This document shows positions 16,283 to 55,145 of a stretch of 64,000 bases of DNA, piece after piece. Positions within the stretch are counted from its first letter, which is position 1. The number at the start of each line of letters is the position of its first letter. Origin of the DNA: Desulfolutivibrio sulfoxidireducens (GTDB lineage Bacteria; Desulfobacterota; Desulfovibrionia; Desulfovibrionales; Desulfovibrionaceae); contig NZ_CP045508.1 in assembly GCF_013376475.1 (NCBI RefSeq), positions 3,694,001-3,758,000 of the forward strand, given 5' to 3'. Both the position numbers and the translations under genes were made by a program. The notes under the pieces were generated by a model. The model worked only from the letters and a program-made list of their open reading frames with translations. It was not told the origin of the DNA and ran no database searches.

Positions 16283-16304
16283 AAAAAATACCTTCGTATT
16301 TTTT
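16283..16304. terminator. AT-rich terminator-like hairpin inside the Ehr operon
   Basis: AAAAAATAC-CTTC-GTATTTTTT, a perfect 9-bp palindrome with A-run and T-run flanks, just before the ribosome binding site AAGGAA (16305-16310) of the HyfF-like gene. It is nearly identical to the hairpins at 54910-54932 and 55017-55038. It may attenuate transcription or occlude the ribosome binding site; complete termination would silence the downstream half of the operon. Confidence 0.6.
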
Positions 16305-19436: not shown

Positions 19437-20210
19437 GTGCTGCGCGCCGCCCTGGAACGCCTGCGCCAAAAGCGCCGCACCGTGGCCTTTCCGGCCGCGC
19501 CCCCGTCCCTGCCGGACCGTTTCCGGGGGCTGCCGGTCATTGACGCCGCGAAATGCCGGCCCGAGTGCCGCAAAGATCCGGCCTGCGCCGCGGCCTGTCC
19601 GGTGGGGGCCATCCGCCCGGGTCTGGGCGTGGCCGGAACGCCGGCCATCGACCTGGGCAAGTGCCTGTTCTGCACGGACTGCATGGCCGCCTGCCCCACC
19701 GGGGCGTTGACCTTTGGCCGCGACTACCGGCTGGCCGTACGCCAGCGCGAGCACCTGCTTGTGCGGGGGGAGGCCCTCAGGCTGGCCGAGGCCCTGGAGA
19801 GGCGGACCCGCCGGCTGTTCGGCCGGTCGCTGAAGCTGCGGCAGGTCAGCGCCGGGGGCTGCAACGCCTGCGAGGCGGATTTGAACGTGTTGACCACCAT
19901 CGTCTTCGATCTGGGGCGGTTCGGCATCGAGTTCGTGGCCTCGCCGCGCCATGCCGATGGGCTGATGATCACCGGGCCGGTGACCGAGAACATGCGGGAG
20001 GCGCTTCTGAAATGCCACGACGCGACGCCCGACCCCAAGATCGTGATCGCCTCGGGGTCCTGCGCCATCTCGGGCGGCCCGTTCGCCGGGATGCCGGAAT
20101 CCCACGACGGGGCCGACGCCCTTTTGCCGGTAGACCTGTACATACCCGGGTGCCCGCCGCATCCGATCACGGCCCTGGACGGGATGCTGCGGCTCTTGGG
20201 GAGAATATAA
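19437..20210 (+). CDS. HyfI/NuoB-like small subunit with N-terminal ferredoxin domain (Ehr complex)
   Basis: A 257-residue iron-sulfur protein. The N-terminal part (about 35-100) holds two cluster motifs, an atypical CRPECRKDPACAAACP and a canonical CLFCTDCMAACP, resembling a fusion of HyfH-type ferredoxin to the small subunit. The C-terminal part is NuoB-like, with the cluster ligands GGCNACEAD, GSCAISGG and GCPPHPITAL all kept. Electron transfer to the large subunit is therefore plausible. The start is GTG 19437 behind AAAGGGGG. The stop TAA overlaps the left arm of a terminator, and the last 60 bases are repeated four more times downstream. Confidence 0.88.
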   Translation: MLRAALERLRQKRRTVAFPAAPPSLPDRFRGLPVIDAAKCRPECRKDPACAAACPVGAIRPGLGVAGTPAIDLGKCLFCTDCMAACPTGALTFGRDYRLAVRQREHLLVRGEALRLAEALERRTRRLFGRSLKLRQVSAGGCNACEADLNVLTTIVFDLGRFGIEFVASPRHADGLMITGPVTENMREALLKCHDATPDPKIVIASGSCAISGGPFAGMPESHDGADALLPVDLYIPGCPPHPITALDGMLRLLGRI

Positions 20211-20602
20211 AAAGACGAAACGTCTTTTTATTGAGGGGGGTGCCCGCCGCATCCGATCACGGCCCTGGACGGGATGCCGCGTTTATTGGGGAGAATATAA
20301 AAAGACGAAACGTCTTTTTATTGAGGGGGGTGCCCGCCGCATCCGACCACGGCCCTGGACGGGATGCCGCGTTTATTGGGGAGAATATAAAAAGACGTAA
20401 ACATCTTTTTATTGAGGGGGGGTGCCCGCCGCATCCGATCACGGCCCTGGACGGGATGCCGCGTTTATTGGGGAGAATATAAAAAGACGAAACGTCTTTT
20501 TATTGAGGGGGGTGCCCGCCGCATCCGATCACGGCCCTGGACGGGATGTTGCGGCTCTTGGAGAGAATATAAAAAGACGTAAACGTTTTTTTATTGGAGG
20601 GC
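20151..20602 (+). repeat. Tandem array: five copies of a 90-bp gene-3'-end-plus-terminator unit
   Basis: Units begin at 20151, 20241, 20331, 20423 and 20513 (90, 90, 92, 90 and about 90 bases), with a decayed sixth start near 20601. Each unit carries the coding 3' end of the HyfI-like gene from the last cluster cysteine (TGCCCGCCGCATCCGATCAC), the stop region GAGAATATAA, the hairpin AAAAAGACG-AAA-CGTCTTTTT and a G-run. Only the first copy is part of the gene. Copies differ by a few substitutions (unit 3 hairpin AAAAAGACGTAAACATCTTT; unit 5 AAAAAGACGTAAACGTTTTT). Confidence 0.95.
20209..20229 (+). terminator. Terminator of the Ehr operon (first of five)
   Basis: AAAAAGACG-AAA-CGTCTTTTT forms a perfect 9-bp stem with a 3-base loop, starting inside the stop codon of the HyfI-like gene and ending in a T-run. 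The same hairpin recurs in each following repeat unit, so up to five terminators stand in series. Confidence 0.8.
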
Positions 20603-20612
20603 TGTCTGCCGC

Positions 20613-20640
20613 AAAAAAAAAGGCGCCTCTCCCAGGCGCC
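20613..20640 (-). terminator. Rho-independent terminator for the GGDEF-EAL gene
   Basis: On the minus strand GGCGCC-TGGGAGA-GGCGCC is followed by nine T (A-run 20613-20621 on the plus strand). It lies about 200 bases past the stop of the leftward GGDEF-EAL gene, beyond the minisatellite and palindromic repeat. Confidence 0.7.
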
Positions 20641-20672
20641 CGCGACCAGAAAGAACACACCGTAGCTGTTAC

Positions 20673-20710
20673 GGGATTCCAAAGGGCGAAGCCCTTTGGC
20701 CGCCGGAGGC
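20673..20710. repeat. Dispersed palindromic repeat, probable bidirectional terminator (copy 3)
   Basis: GGGATTCCAAAGGGCGAAGC continues through CCTTTGGCCGCCGGAGGC, the inverse orientation of copy 1. The core CCAAAGGGC-GAA-GCCCTTTGG is a perfect 9-bp stem. It sits in the convergent zone between the Ehr operon and the GGDEF-EAL gene. Confidence 0.8.
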
Positions 20711-20723
20711 CTCTCCCACTCCC

Positions 20724-20836
20724 AGCCTCCGTCTCCCAACCTCCGTCTCCCAACCTCCGTCTCCCAGCCTCCGTCTCCCAACCTCCGTCTCCCAACCTCC
20801 GTCTCCCAGCCTCCGTCTCCCAGCCTCCGTTCCCCG
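20724..20836. repeat. 14-bp minisatellite, eight units
   Basis: The unit CCTCCGTCTCCCAA/AG repeats with an exact 14-base period at 20726, 20740, 20754, 20768, 20782, 20796, 20810 and 20824, alternating mainly in the A/G at its end; the last unit is diverged. It directly abuts the stop codon (20837-20839) of the leftward GGDEF-EAL gene. Confidence 0.92.
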
Positions 20837-23053
20837 CTACGTCTTTCCCTCCCCGCCCAGCAGCTCTCCGGCGGCCTCCTCCTCCATGGCCGCGCCGAAG
20901 TAGTGGCCCTGGATCATGTCGCAGCCCATGTCCAACAGCCCCGCCGCCTCGTCCTTGCGTTCCACGCCCTCCACCACCACGTCCATATTCAGTGCGTGGG
21001 CCATGGCCACCATGAGCCGCACCAGTTCCCAGCCGCGCTCCTCGTCCAGGCCCCGGACAAAGGACTGATCGATCTTGATGGCCTCGGCGGGCAGGCGGCG
21101 CAGGACAGCCAGCGAGGAATAGCCCGTGCCGAAGTCGTCGATGAACACCGCCGCGCCCAGGCCCTTGAGCCGGGCAAGGGTCTCGGCGGCCGCGTCCGGG
21201 TGTTCCATAAGCACGCTCTCGGTGATCTCCAGCTTGAGCGCCCCGGCCGGAAGCCGCTCCCGGCGAAGCGCCTGCTCCACCTCGGCGGCCAGGTCCGCGT
21301 GCCGAAACTGGCATCCGGACACGTTGACGCTGACGAAAAAGGGTTTCCTGGGGAAACGGTCCAGCCAACCGCGCAGGGTGGCCGCGGCCCCGGCCAGGGC
21401 GAAACGTCCGATCTCCCCGATAAGGTTGGTCTGTTCGGCCACGGGAATGAACTCCCCCGGGGAGATCACCCCGAGCCGGGGATGCCGCCATCTGGCCAGG
21501 GCCTCGAATCCGGCCAGTCCGCCCGTGGCCGAATGCACCAGGGGCTGGTAGACCAGCCGCACCTCCCCCCGGGGAATGGCCTGGCGCAGGTGCGTGGCCA
21601 GTTGCAGACGGCGATCGGCCTCGCGGCGCATGGAGGCGTCAAAAAGGACATATCCGCCCTTGCCCCTGGCCTTGGCCCGGTACATGGCCGTATCCGCGTC
21701 GCGCAGGATGTCTTCGGGCAGTCGCACGCAGCCCCGCCCCCCCGTGGTCCCGGCCACGATCCCGGCCGAGGCCTGAATGAACAGGGTATGGCTGTCCACG
21801 CGCACTCCCCGCCGCAGGGTCGCGTTGACCCGGTCCACCACCTCCGGGGCCCGTCGCCCCTGGTCCCCGTCGTCCAAAAGGGCCACGAACTCGTCCCCGC
21901 CGAAACGGCCCAGCACGTCGCCGTCCCCGAGGCACCCGGCCAGGACGGCGGCCACCGCCACCAGGAGCCGGTCGCCCACAGCGTGGCCCAGGCTGTCGTT
22001 GACGTATTTGAAGTCGTCGAGGTCGAAAAAGATGGTGGAGAATGCGGCCCCCGGGTCCTGGATTGCTCGCTCCAGGCGGCGACGCAGCTCCTTAAGGACA
22101 AAGGTCCGGTTGAAAAGCCCGGTCAGGGCGTCGTGGGTGGCCTGGTGGCGCAGGGCCTTTTCGCGGCGCACCTCCTCGGTCACGTCCCGATAGACCGCCA
22201 GCACCCGTACGGTTTTTCCGGCGTCGTCGCGGATGACGTCCAGGGTCTGCGCCACCCACCGGACGCCCCCGTCCGGCCGCCTGGTCCGAAACCGGACCAT
22301 CCCGCACCGGCCATCCAAAAGACAGGCGTTCACCCCGGCCGAAAAAAGCGCCCGGTCCTCGGCCACGACCAGTTCGGCCAGATCCTCGATGCACGGCGGC
22401 ATGGCGCCTCCGGCAAGGGGAAACAGGTCGCCCGCGTCCCGCGACCAGCGAACCAGGCCATCGGCCAGGTTCCACTCCAGGCTGGCGATGCCGCCCACCC
22501 GGTGGGCCATGTCCGACATCTTTTCCCGGGAGAGCTTTTCCGCCAGGGCCTCCCGGATGATCGCCGCCAGCCTGTCCGTGGCAAAAGGCTTGGTCAGGAA
22601 CCGGAACACCCGGCCCTGGTTGATGCCCCGGATGGCGGCATCCAGGCTGGCCTCGCCCGTGAGCATGACGCCAATGACCGAGGGATGCCGCCTGGCGGTC
22701 TCGGCCAGGAGTTCGGAACCGCTCATGCCGGGCATCTTCTCGTCGGTGACCACCACGTCCACGCCCCGCCCGGCCGCGCCCCGGGCCAGGATGTCCAGGG
22801 CCAGGGCCGCCGAGGAGGCGGTCGCGACCGCGAAGGATTCCTGATGAAAGACCCGGCGAAAGGTCTCAAGCACCTGGGGCTCGTCGTCCACGAAGAGCAC
22901 CACGCCACCCAGGCCGGTTTTCCCGGCGCCCTCCCCCGCGCCCGGGGAGGGACAACGGGCCTGGCGCGCCGGACAGGACGTCGCATCAGGGGAGTCGGGG
23001 GCGGCCTGGGCCGCGCCGTCGGCTTCCGGCCACCCCGAAATGGTTTTTCCCAT
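20837..23053 (-). CDS. Response regulator with PAS, GGDEF and EAL domains
   Basis: A 738-residue c-di-GMP turnover protein. Order: a variable N-terminus; a receiver domain (about 50-170, VLFVDDEPQVLE with phospho-acceptor VVVTDEKMPGMSG and signature FLTKPFA); a PAS-like domain (VRWSRDAGDLFPL to VYRDVTEEV); a GGDEF domain with intact RFGGDEFVALL; an EAL domain with GFEALARWRHP, EITESVLME and FIDDFGTGYSSL. Both cyclase and phosphodiesterase motifs look complete, so either activity is possible. The start at 23053 (MGKTISGW) follows GGGGGTGGC; upstream frame is Pro/Ala-rich and unlikely to be translated. No partner kinase is adjacent. Confidence 0.9.
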   Translation of the reverse strand: MGKTISGWPEADGAAQAAPDSPDATSCPARQARCPSPGAGEGAGKTGLGGVVLFVDDEPQVLETFRRVFHQESFAVATASSAALALDILARGAAGRGVDVVVTDEKMPGMSGSELLAETARRHPSVIGVMLTGEASLDAAIRGINQGRVFRFLTKPFATDRLAAIIREALAEKLSREKMSDMAHRVGGIASLEWNLADGLVRWSRDAGDLFPLAGGAMPPCIEDLAELVVAEDRALFSAGVNACLLDGRCGMVRFRTRRPDGGVRWVAQTLDVIRDDAGKTVRVLAVYRDVTEEVRREKALRHQATHDALTGLFNRTFVLKELRRRLERAIQDPGAAFSTIFFDLDDFKYVNDSLGHAVGDRLLVAVAAVLAGCLGDGDVLGRFGGDEFVALLDDGDQGRRAPEVVDRVNATLRRGVRVDSHTLFIQASAGIVAGTTGGRGCVRLPEDILRDADTAMYRAKARGKGGYVLFDASMRREADRRLQLATHLRQAIPRGEVRLVYQPLVHSATGGLAGFEALARWRHPRLGVISPGEFIPVAEQTNLIGEIGRFALAGAAATLRGWLDRFPRKPFFVSVNVSGCQFRHADLAAEVEQALRRERLPAGALKLEITESVLMEHPDAAAETLARLKGLGAAVFIDDFGTGYSSLAVLRRLPAEAIKIDQSFVRGLDEERGWELVRLMVAMAHALNMDVVVEGVERKDEAAGLLDMGCDMIQGHYFGAAMEEEAAGELLGGEGKT

Positions 23054-23327
23054 GCCACCCCCTGTACTCCCACGCCCGGGCAAAGGCAACGCCGCCGGCG
23101 TGTTCGCCGGCGAACAGGCGAGGCGGGCGATCTTCCCGGCCGTCACAGCCTTGTCCCTTTTTTCGCAACGCCGACTTGTCGTTGAAAACTCCGCCGGATA
23201 GGCGTATCCACAAATTTGTCGATTGGCATGCGGCAAAATCCGATCCGCATTTTCGGCCGGCGCGGCCCCTCTCACGGACTGCCCCGACACCGGCCCGGCC
23301 CACCGGAAACCACACGGCGGCAGGCAC

Positions 23328-23927
23328 ATGCAGGCACATCACAAGGAACAGGGCGGGACCATCGTCACGGTCATGGACGATGTCAGCGTGGAATACCGCC
23401 GCCAGCCCAAGACGCCGCGTCGCGAGGCCTCCCGTCTCTTTTTGGCCGTGTCCGCGCTTTTGCGCTTCGTGCCCCTGTACGCCATGTGGCTGGCGCTTTC
23501 GGGTTTCTTCGATGTCTTCCACATGACCGTGGGCGTCGTGTGCTGCCTGGCCGTGGCCGTCTTCTCCCAGGCCATTCTGCCGCCGCGCCCGGCCTCCCCC
23601 TTTCCCCTGCGGCCGCTTCTTTTCATGCCCGGCTACTGCCTGTGGCTTTTATGGGAGATCGTCAAGGCCAACGTCTGGGTCCTCTATCTGGTCTTTCATC
23701 CCCGGATGATGGAAAAAATCGACCCCAGGCTTTTCACCTTCAAAAGCCGGCTGACCTCGCGGGTCGCCCTGACCGTATTCGCCAACTCCATCACCCTGAC
23801 CCCCGGGACCATCACCGTCAGCGTCAACGAGCGGGGGGATTTCCTGGTGCACGCCATCGACGGCAAGTCCGCCGGAGGGCTGCCCGGGGAGATGGAGAAA
23901 AAAATCGCGGCCACCTTCGGGGAATAG
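23328..23927 (+). CDS. mrpE: Mrp-type Na+/H+ antiporter subunit E
   Basis: A 199-residue MrpE/MnhE/MbhA-family protein. After a polar N-terminus it has hydrophobic segments (PLYAMWLALSGFFDVFHM, VGVVCCLAVAVFSQAIL, MPGYCLWLLWEIVKANVWVL) and the family signature RVALTVFANSITLTPGTITV followed by FLVHAIDG. The start is uncertain: ATG 23328 (weak GGCAGG) and ATG 23373 are both possible. It is the first gene of a ten-gene operon with almost no spacing; the next gene starts three bases after its stop. Confidence 0.88.
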   Translation: MQAHHKEQGGTIVTVMDDVSVEYRRQPKTPRREASRLFLAVSALLRFVPLYAMWLALSGFFDVFHMTVGVVCCLAVAVFSQAILPPRPASPFPLRPLLFMPGYCLWLLWEIVKANVWVLYLVFHPRMMEKIDPRLFTFKSRLTSRVALTVFANSITLTPGTITVSVNERGDFLVHAIDGKSAGGLPGEMEKKIAATFGE

Positions 23928-23930
23928 GCC

Positions 23931-24206
23931 ATGGAACGGATATTTTTGTATTCCGGCGTATATATCGCCCTGCTCATGCTGGTGTCGTTGTACCGCACGG
24001 CGGCCGGGCCGACCACGCTGGACCGGCTCATGGGGGCCAACGCCATGGGCTCCAAGACCACGGCATTGATCCTTTTTATGGGCGTGGCCTTCGACCGCCT
24101 GGACATGTTCGTGGACATCGCCCTGGCCTACGCCATGCTCAACTTCATCTCGGTCCTGGCCGCCTCGCGCTATGTCCTCAAGCGCGGCCTGGGCGACAAG
24201 TCATAG
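23931..24206 (+). CDS. mrpF: Mrp-type antiporter subunit F
   Basis: A 91-residue membrane protein with three hydrophobic segments, matching MrpF/MnhF/MbhB in size and in the motif RTAAGPTTLDRLMGANAMGSK, followed by VDIALAYAMLNFISVLAA. It is a structural part of the Mrp membrane complex. It begins three bases after mrpE and is followed by mrpG after 11 bases. Confidence 0.92.
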   Translation: MERIFLYSGVYIALLMLVSLYRTAAGPTTLDRLMGANAMGSKTTALILFMGVAFDRLDMFVDIALAYAMLNFISVLAASRYVLKRGLGDKS

Positions 24207-24217
24207 GGGACACGGAC

Positions 24218-24547
24218 ATGAACTTCCTGGTCTGCGCGCTTCTGGGGATCGGACTGATTTTTTTCACCGGCGGCACCCTGGGGCTGATCCGTCTGCCCGA
24301 CGTCTATTCCCGGCTGCACATGGCCGGCAAGATCGACACCATGGGCAGCATAAGCCTTATAGCCGCGCTTTTCCTGTACGAGATCACGATCTTCGACCTG
24401 GCCCACGTCCTGGTGGGCATAAAGATCCTGCTGGTCCTGTTCTTTGTGTTCCTGGCCTCGCCCACGGCCTGCCACGCCATGGTCGACGCCTGCCTGCGGG
24501 CCGGGCTGGCCCCGTGGGTCAAGGGCGGGCAAGGGGGCGACGCGTGA
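24218..24547 (+). CDS. mrpG: Mrp-type antiporter subunit G
   Basis: A 109-residue MrpG/MnhG/MbhC-family membrane protein with three helices. The family motif GLIRLPDVYSRLHMAGKIDT is clear, followed by FDLAHVLVGIKILLVLFFVF and the SPTACHAM segment typical of subunit G. The ATG at 24218 was chosen because it gives the usual short N-terminus. The stop overlaps the GTG start of the next gene. Confidence 0.92.
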   Translation: MNFLVCALLGIGLIFFTGGTLGLIRLPDVYSRLHMAGKIDTMGSISLIAALFLYEITIFDLAHVLVGIKILLVLFFVFLASPTACHAMVDACLRAGLAPWVKGGQGGDA

Positions 24548-35275: not shown

Positions 35276-35313
35276 GGGATTCCAAAGGGCGAAGCCCTTT
35301 GGCCGCCGGAGGC
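35276..35313. repeat. Dispersed palindromic repeat, probable bidirectional terminator (copy 4)
   Basis: Identical to copy 3 over its whole 38 bases (GGGATTCCAAAGGGCGAAGC continuing to CCTTTGGCCGCCGGAGGC), with the same perfect 9-bp stem. It occupies the 88-base convergent gap between the receiver gene and the PEP-synthase-like gene. Confidence 0.8.
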
Positions 35314-51985: not shown

Positions 51986-52096
51986 CTCGTGTCGCGTCCT
52001 CGAAATCCGTATTTACGAATTGCAGAGACAATATTCTGGAATAATTTAATTTTTTCTCAAAATAATACTGACATATTTTTAGGGACGCGACACGAG
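51986..52096. repeat. 14-bp inverted repeat enclosing an AT-rich segment
   Basis: CTCGTGTCGCGTCC (51986-51999) and its exact complement (52083-52096) flank 83 AT-rich bases just after the 301-residue gene. It could be a long stem-loop or a short element with terminal inverted repeats. The rest of the 424-base gap to hcp shows only the operator and promoter listed separately. Confidence 0.7.
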
Positions 52097-54056: not shown

Positions 54057-54848
54057 ATGAACGCCACGCGAAAGATCATCGAGATCGATGAGGAACTGTG
54101 CAACGGCTGCGGCCAGTGCGTCACGGGCTGCGCCGAGGGGGCGCTGCGCATCGTGGACGGCAAGGCGAAGCTCGTCGCCGACCGCTACTGCGACGGCCTG
54201 GGGGCCTGCATCGGCGAGTGCCCCACGGGCGCGCTCACAATCATCGAACGCCCGGGCGAGGCCTTTGACGAGGCGGCCGTGCACGAGATGCTGGCCGCGA
54301 AAAAGGCCGCGCCCATGGCCCGCGGCTGCCCGTCAACCACGGTCATGAGCCTTTCGCCCTGCGAGACGGCCAATATTCCGACCGCGCTCGCCGGATCGCA
54401 CGGGACGACAGGTCCGGCCCCGGCCAGGGAATCGGCCCTGTCCCACTGGCCCATCCAACTGCGGCTCATCCCGCCCGAGGCCCCGTTTCTTCGCGGCGCG
54501 AGCCTGCTTCTGGCCGCGGACTGCGTCCCGGCCGCGTTTCCGGGCTACCATGATTTTCTGGCCGGCCGGGTGGTGGCCATCGGCTGCCCCAAGTTCGACG
54601 ACGCCAAGGACTACGTGGCCAGGCTTGCGGCCATGATCCGGGTCTCGGGCATATCCGACATCACGGTCCTGGAGATGGAGGTGCCGTGTTGCTCCGGGAT
54701 GCACCGTCTGGCCACGGCGGCCGCGGCGGACGCCGGCATGAACCTGCCCATCCGGCGCATCGTGGTCTCGCGCCGGGGAGGGATCATGGCCCGGGAGTTG
54801 GTCGGCGGCGGGGCCAGGCCCCGGGGCGCCTGCGCCTGCATGGGATAG
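54057..54848 (+). CDS. Hcp-associated ferredoxin-like iron-sulfur protein
   Basis: A 263-residue protein that commonly follows hcp and probably supplies it with electrons. The first cluster motif is canonical (CNGCGQCVTGC). The second, CDGLGACIGECP, has Leu in place of the second cysteine, so it may bind a [3Fe-4S] cluster or use another ligand. A C-terminal domain (about 130-263) contains VVAIGCPKFDDAKDYVARLA and EMEVPCCSGMHRL, a thiol-rich site of unknown function. It lies 87 bases after hcp. The 3' end of the gene is duplicated immediately downstream. Confidence 0.86.
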   Translation: MNATRKIIEIDEELCNGCGQCVTGCAEGALRIVDGKAKLVADRYCDGLGACIGECPTGALTIIERPGEAFDEAAVHEMLAAKKAAPMARGCPSTTVMSLSPCETANIPTALAGSHGTTGPAPARESALSHWPIQLRLIPPEAPFLRGASLLLAADCVPAAFPGYHDFLAGRVVAIGCPKFDDAKDYVARLAAMIRVSGISDITVLEMEVPCCSGMHRLATAAAADAGMNLPIRRIVVSRRGGIMARELVGGGARPRGACACMG

Positions 54849-55060
54849 CTTCGTTTCCTGGAAATCCAGACCATGCGGCTCATGGAGGATACGGTAAGAT
54901 TGTTTTTTCAAAAAATACTTTCGTATTTTTTTCGGGAACGGATGCATGGGATAGCTTCGTTTCCTGGCAATCCAGGCCCATGCGGCTCAGAAAGGACGCT
55001 GTGAGATCGTTTGATCAAAAAATACTTTCGTATTCTTTGCGAGCACCAGGAATGCGCCTG
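54837..55060 (+). repeat. Tandem duplication of a gene 3' end plus terminator hairpin
   Basis: The end of the ferredoxin gene (TGCATGGGATAGCTTCGTTT) at 54837 recurs at 54943, and TGCGCCTGCATGGG recurs once more at 55053. Each full unit (106 and about 116 bases) includes an AT-rich palindrome: AAAAAATAC-TTTC-GTATTTTTTT at 54910-54932 and AAAAAATAC-TTTC-GTATTCTTT at 55017-55038. The first hairpin is a good terminator for the hcp unit; the second copy is slightly degenerate. Confidence 0.88.
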
Positions 55061-55145
55061 CATGGGTTGAGGCGGCACACCGCCGGCACGATCAAGGTTT
55101 CCGCACGGAAACGGTGCACGGCCGACACACCAGGGAGGACAAGCC

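Follow-up and report, generated by a model that had tools for sequence, protein, structure and literature searches.

Gene ends copied around a short AT-rich palindrome in Desulfolutivibrio: a tandem array behind a hydrogenase-like gene and loci of the same anatomy across the genus

The tandem gene-end copies behind a hydrogenase-like (hyf) gene in the window (the whole 64,000-nucleotide stretch of Desulfolutivibrio sulfoxidireducens DNA analyzed here) share their anatomy with loci at many unrelated genes of the genus. In these loci, direct copies of host sequence (T), most often a gene end, bracket a short AT-rich palindromic element of about 30-105 bp (H), made up of a hairpin and a variable flank. 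Besides recurring at many unrelated genes, the structure has alleles with neither H nor the duplication, and its copy number differs between species. The reading that we favor, to which we assign a probability of about 0.6, is that a small palindrome inserted with a long target duplication of variable length and that tandem amplification followed, the hyf array being one member of a genus-wide T-H-T family.

A preliminary description of this DNA had reported five tandem copies of the 3' end of the gene plus a hairpin, and both TRF and a search with the whole array confirmed this. The array occupies 20148-20601 (period 90, 5.0 copies, 94% matches), and TRF gave an additional row with a period of 182. 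The whole-array query had a single match in the window's genome, a single contig of 4,155,851 bases. The units are 90, 90, 92, 90, and 92 bp long in order and show 88-100% pairwise identity, copies 2 and 4 being identical. Each consists of the last 60 coding bases of the gene at 19437-20210, the stop codon, and an AT-rich hairpin, and the copied gene end past the first stop lies outside the HyfI-like reading frame. The unit opens with GGG TGC, which makes 20151 the Cys codon at which the unit had been said to start; across an alignment of 10 sequences this Cys (C239) does not vary, and it is presumably a cluster ligand. The hairpin had been called perfect, which does not hold for all copies: the stem has 9 bp in copies 1, 2, and 4, 9 bp with one G-U pair in copy 5, and 7 bp in copy 3. 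The corresponding RNA folding energies are -6.8 kcal/mol (copies 1, 2, and 4), -5.1 kcal/mol (copy 5), and -2.2 kcal/mol (copy 3), and the transcripts would carry a U tract after these hairpins of -2.2 to -6.8 kcal/mol, whereas a G+C-rich terminator-like hairpin on the opposite strand just past the array folds at -14.9 kcal/mol. The identity of copies 2 and 4, together with the 182-bp period, makes it likely that the array grew in more than one round, perhaps via copying of a dimer. The features of this region are as follows.

19437-20210, plus strand: HyfH/HyfI-like fused gene, 257 aa, with 4Fe-4S domains and Oxidored_q6; its last 60 coding bases lie within unit 1
20148-20237, plus strand: hyf unit 1, the gene 3' end (T) followed by a hairpin (20209-20229) and a short tail rich in G
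20238-20327, plus strand: hyf unit 2, identical to unit 4
20328-20419, plus strand: hyf unit 3, stem down to 7 bp
20420-20509, plus strand: hyf unit 4
20510-20601, plus strand: hyf unit 5, hairpin with one G-U pair
20599-20613, plus strand: degenerate 15-base start of a further unit (GGGCTGTCTGCCGCA), putatively the eroded last T of the array
20613-20641, minus strand: G+C-rich terminator-like hairpin with its T run on the minus strand, predicted from the sequence (-14.9 kcal/mol) to serve the convergent gene
20837-23329, minus strand: convergent response-regulator/PAS/GGDEF/EAL gene

Between the array and the convergent gene lies a 14-bp minisatellite (20719-20834; 8.4 copies, 95% matches), and just before it, at 20679-20699, is a REP-like palindrome, CCAAAGGGCGAAGCCCTTTGG, with a second occurrence at 35282-35302.

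Our sample of the genus comprised three genomes, G000 (the window's), G001, and G002; in each of them, the hyf gene is followed by copies of its end together with the hairpin. The preliminary description had suggested that copy number could vary among relatives, and it does: against five units in G000, we counted by eye about four of ~65 bp in G001 and about three of ~67 bp in G002. The arrays of G001 and G002 are more degenerate and have other unit boundaries than that of G000; TRF reports 3.0 copies at G001 hyf and none at G002 hyf, self-BLAST finds repeats in both, and the sequence immediately past the array differs among the genomes (by eye). The earlier proposal that the array arose by slippage or template switching at the hairpin holds in one respect: because unit and copy number differ between relatives, a mutational origin tied to the hairpin is likely. 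Slippage on a native terminator nevertheless does not account for the empty alleles described below, in which both the hairpin and the second copy are absent.

For homologues, the last 75 matched bases were compared with the downstream 310 at 98 loci, with 1000 cross-locus pairs as the null. The three genus members scored 100, 54, and 53 (null maximum, 26), whereas none of the 95 homologues outside the genus scored above the null maximum, the best equaling it at 26; many of these 95 outside matches stop at residue 245, so that the exact gene end was not always compared. We therefore rejected the array as a general trait of HyfI-like genes. Dispersal of the hyf unit itself was likewise rejected: it occurs at one place in G000, and its own hairpin pattern is found three times in G000, always in the array, and not at all in G001 or G002.

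A hairpin of the more general form AAAAA-N-AC-loop-GT-N'-TTTTT is dispersed in all three genomes of the genus. Whole-genome forward matches numbered 34 in G000 (two of which overlap), 32 in G001, and 22 in G002, and the reversed-pattern control gave 3, 0, and 1, respectively. Among these 88 hairpins, which include array members that are not independent of one another, the bases at the free stem position form a complementary pair in 74 and a G-U pair in 4 and do not pair in 10 (52% complementary expected under independence), and there are 54 different loops. We aligned the left with the right flank at 71 pooled hairpin loci, using a cut-off of 40 and 600 cross-locus pairs as the null. Direct repeats scoring at least 40 flank 22 of the 71 loci (2 in G000, 11 in G001, and 9 in G002), and the null maximum was 35. 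At least fifteen of the 22 are copies of the 3' end of a nameable gene, and L216 and L195 probably also lie over gene 3' ends. L192 shows the T-H-T anatomy at the 5' end of a gene, L201 consists of tandem copies of an element with terminal inverted repeats (TIR), and L218, L220, and L234 are counted without a gene assignment. Three further arrays lie beyond the 22: aroC in G000, which has four units and scored low since the test entered the array from the far end; dapB in G002 (score 34); and hyf in G001, where the hairpin has a shorter run. L193, whose score of 34 is inside the null range, was classed as T-H-T because its G001 orthologue, L206, is clear.

Altogether, the anatomy is found at eleven unrelated genes of the genus, encoding HyfI-like, ferredoxin-domain, chorismate synthase, DapB, AcrB-like, glycosyltransferase, ZnuA, branched-chain amino-acid ABC ATPase, protein kinase, Ppnp, and MrpF proteins, and so it does not appear peculiar to the end of a hydrogenase operon. 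The distance from stop to hairpin is 21-30 nt in 8 of 12 rows and 46 and 64 nt at two, and the stop is overlapped in two hyf rows; these rows are restricted to the intended gene, a wrong ORF or strand having been met at window position 54911, L191, L231, and mrpF, among others. Where measured at loci with a single hairpin (n = 7), the direct repeats align over 25-131 bp. TRF and a direct-repeat scan were also run over 850,780 bases (the window, 320 kb of G000, 435 kb of G002, and 31.8 kb of G001), a survey that was non-exhaustive in that the G002 hyf array escaped TRF and both arrays in L128 escaped the direct-repeat scan. It matched the same anatomy at window positions 54831-55066, in the mrpF/mrpG gap of G001 and G002, and at the kinase gene of G002. 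Long internal repeats (periods up to 318 bp) were also seen in G000 ORFs of 1414-1765 codons (L130:8134-10188, L138:4464-5382, and L139:9327-14220). Further features of the window that bear on the family are listed here.

16284-16303, unstranded: single hairpin of the family before a HyfF-like gene, with no flanking repeat (score 22)
24182-24220, plus strand: empty site, the end of mrpF (MrpF by Pfam) running into the start of mrpG; G001 and G002 have T-H-T-H-T there
51986-52096, unstranded: TIR-bearing MITE-like element with a decayed hairpin
54831-55066, plus strand: second T-H-T-H-t locus of the window, at the end of a ferredoxin-domain gene (54057-54848), with hairpin 54911-54930, second T 54943-54954, decayed hairpin 55017-55038, and last t 55053-55066

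Comparison of orthologous sites showed filled and empty alleles. Seven gene ends filled in G001 or G002 (ABC ATPase, znuA, dapB, glycosyltransferase, Ppnp, RND, and kinase) are all empty in G000, where the gene end is present once, with neither a duplication nor such a hairpin. With mrpF included, eight of eight tested gene ends filled in the relatives are empty in G000, a count that omits L192, L195/L216, L218, and L220/L234. Conversely, the aroC site is occupied in G000 alone, being empty in G001 and G002; for Ppnp the sole filled genome is G002, and for znuA it is G001. The numbers of hairpins in G000, G001, and G002, respectively, are 0, 4, and 1 at dapB; 0, 2, and 1 at the kinase gene; 0, 1, and 2 at RND; 0, 2, and 1 at the glycosyltransferase gene; and 0, 2, and 2 at mrpF. 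The ferredoxin gene has two hairpins in G000 and one, decayed, in G002, and is empty in G001, a pattern that needs either a loss in G001 or two gains.

Two filled/empty pairs allowed the event to be measured. At the ferredoxin gene, G002 differs from G001 by a duplication of 18 bp and a 105-bp insert; at znuA, G001 differs from G002 by a duplication of ~62-71 bp and a 52-60-bp insert, the ranges depending on where the diverged first copy is cut. At both, the second T continues into native sequence. Duplication lengths at Ppnp were left unused, the alignment there being spoiled by decay and a later insertion. The redundant gene-end copies decay: the second copy at the G002 ABC-ATPase gene (L227) is down to about a dozen bases, like the last hyf piece. 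Another family of gene-end repeats, REP-like (CCAAAGGGC...GCCCTTTGG), was seen behind znuA and Ppnp in G002 (L303 and L226).

Most of the hairpin loci that are not T-H-T loci prove, by eye, to be copies of a dispersed element of ~110 bp whose ends, (CTAG)TGTCGCGTCC...GGACGCGACAC, are inverted repeats and which carries the hairpin close to one of them. With its terminal inverted repeats, short length, and lack of a gene, it is MITE-like; G000 has four TIR pairs of such size. Among the 23 places of the exact 11-base TIR in that genome, no pair lay at the insertion-sequence distance that an autonomous partner would have, and such a partner with these exact ends was rejected. In G002, L201 (C1, about 1758290-1758640) is the TIR element itself in three tandem copies. 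The H of the T-H-T loci does not have this structure: at loci with direct-repeat scores of at least 40, the left flank against the reverse-complemented right flank scored 33 at most, and that value belongs to L201. Masked H segments (n = 25) compared with a model of the TIR element likewise gave a clear match at L201 only (E = 1e-6; next best, 0.047). The absence of the TIR from T-H-T loci led us to reject, as their source, a tandem duplication of that element together with its flank. The stem of the T-H-T hairpin does recur in the ~110-bp TIR element, both in this genus and in a related one, and the hairpin may be derived from that element.

A stricter pattern, AAAAATAC-N3-5-GTATTTTT, was searched in 149 genomes of the family and is present in 16 (control, one match in each of two genomes). 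It occurs in all three genomes of this genus (17, 23, and 14 matches), in all eight searched of genus g26 (2-45 each), in G029 of g28 (7), and once or twice each in four other genomes. Flanking direct repeats were found at none of 37 loci from other genera (20 of 34 in G027, 13 of 13 in G104, and one each in G120 and G083, all of g26, and two in G028 of g27); the best score was 25 against a null maximum of 44, which is itself above the cut-off of 40 used for the 71 loci. Most g26 loci lie, by eye, inside the TIR element.

On the reading that we favor, H would enter its target via long staggered ends or an equivalent repair event, and the target would be copied on both sides. The first T would keep the gene end readable, and only such events would survive, so that survivors would be found at gene ends because the first T leaves them readable. 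Recombination or slippage between Ts would then add or remove T+H units, up to five at hyf. Differences between species in filled and empty sites are as expected of insertions. At hyf, the insertion step would be drawn by analogy, because all three genomes of the genus are filled and no empty allele is present. Several results count against this reading: the ferredoxin gene, filled in G000 and G002 and empty in G001, requires a loss or two gains; the structure is seen at 0 of 37 loci in other genera; masked H segments clearly match the TIR element at L201 only; and neither RVT_1 nor Y1_Tnp was found in G001 or G002. The aroC array, moreover, ends in H and not T, which fits duplication of an existing T+H better. 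This last point belongs to a rival in which a hairpin already behind the gene (a native terminator or an old MITE remnant) provoked an upstream template switch that duplicated gene end and hairpin, with no insertion. Such duplication would also suit the breakpoint that tandem units share just 3' of the hairpin, the identity of hyf copies 2 and 4 with its 182-bp period, and a hyf locus that has no empty allele, and a simple duplication of a native hairpin is possible at hyf itself. It is at odds with znuA and the ferredoxin gene, where the last T continues as native sequence and H is missing from the empty allele too, and with the eight of eight tested G000 sites that have neither hairpin nor duplication; we consider it an unlikely, if serious, explanation of the family.

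Selection for serial terminators, in which stacked hairpins would block readthrough toward the convergent gene or protect the end of the mRNA, was the role envisaged in the preliminary description, and it appears distinctly unlikely from the sequence features. The hairpins are followed by T5 and commonly stand 21-30 nt past the stop (8 of 12 rows), and hyf arrays occur in three of three genomes of the genus; against this, the RNA hairpins are weak and one is broken, a stronger G+C-rich hairpin adjoins the array, the same arrays lie between mrpF and mrpG and at one gene 5' end, and relatives have empty sites. Weak termination is possible as a by-product of the hairpins, and any terminator effect would be just that under insertion with target duplication. 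Duplications of varying length (25-131 bp at seven single-hairpin loci; 18 bp at the ferredoxin gene) and a T' that starts close behind the hairpin recall target-primed reverse transcription, in which, as with LINE/SINE insertions, one end (here the hairpin) would be constant, the other variable, and the target duplications long. Little beyond the hairpin is common to the H segments, and neither RVT_1 nor Y1_Tnp domains were found in G001 or G002. A retro-inserted element was rejected for want of RVT_1 in G001 and G002, home to most of the loci (G000 has two strong matches), and retro-insertion is highly improbable; a REP/RAYT system was rejected for want of Y1_Tnp in G001 and G002 (G000 has two fragments). 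The two G000 reverse-transcriptase matches, L311 (C1:2827885-2828505) and L312 (C1:3934491-3935111), have equal scores and 566-aa frames and are perhaps two copies of one element. Short tandem repeats are prone to mis-assembly, and an artefact of that kind is scarcely credible here: the units differ from each other within a single-contig genome, and two further genomes have diverged arrays of their own.

The nearest known system that we found is YPAL/RU-2 of Yersinia, which is described as 168 bp long, not A+T-rich, and flanked by target duplications of 3-26 bp (PMC2229807). It resembles T-H-T loci in being a small palindrome with internal inverted repeats and variable target duplications, in its filled and empty sites between close species, and in targets at or beside dyad symmetry (PMC2229807). 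In line with this, our two filled/empty pairs have a palindromic insert with a target duplication of variable length (18 and ~62-71 bp); the 3-26 bp range, however, is exceeded by one of the two exact pairs and six of the seven single-hairpin loci. Unlike YPAL/RU-2, T-H-T loci have duplications of 18 to ~131 bp, copied gene ends, and tandem arrays. Bacterial MITEs are likewise short, AT-rich, dispersed, and at gene ends (PMC10969869), and the TIR element has the same hairpin stem, but T-H-T loci show long direct repeats on either side and no detectable TIR. SPRITE of Streptococcus pneumoniae, which resembles a rho-independent terminator, is also a dispersed terminator-like hairpin, although no copies of host gene ends are described for it in the available portion of the source (PMC10969869). 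Quasipalindrome-associated template switching, in the partial accounts available, shares the idea of hairpin DNA as a seat of replication error; it differs in that it homogenizes arms or inverts spacers, whereas insertion of a hairpin along with a copy of a gene end is not part of it. In the literature searched, whose coverage was partial, we found no account of gene-end copies around a hairpin, which is weak evidence of absence.

We tentatively suggest, as a proposal that we regard as possible and still somewhat doubtful, that these loci represent a new kind of mobile palindrome, one that copies a gene end and does not break it, with target duplications of tens of bases to ~130, and that seeds species-variable arrays of gene end plus hairpin, being active in one genus while in a related genus this hairpin is part of an ordinary TIR element. 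With orthologous sites available in both filled and empty form, the proposed process is directly testable. If it is right, a housekeeping gene such as aroC or dapB can receive a mobile palindrome at its end and stay unbroken, the target being copied. This would give genes a way to acquire new 3' ends, stop codons, and possible terminators, and would also be a way for short tandem arrays to arise.
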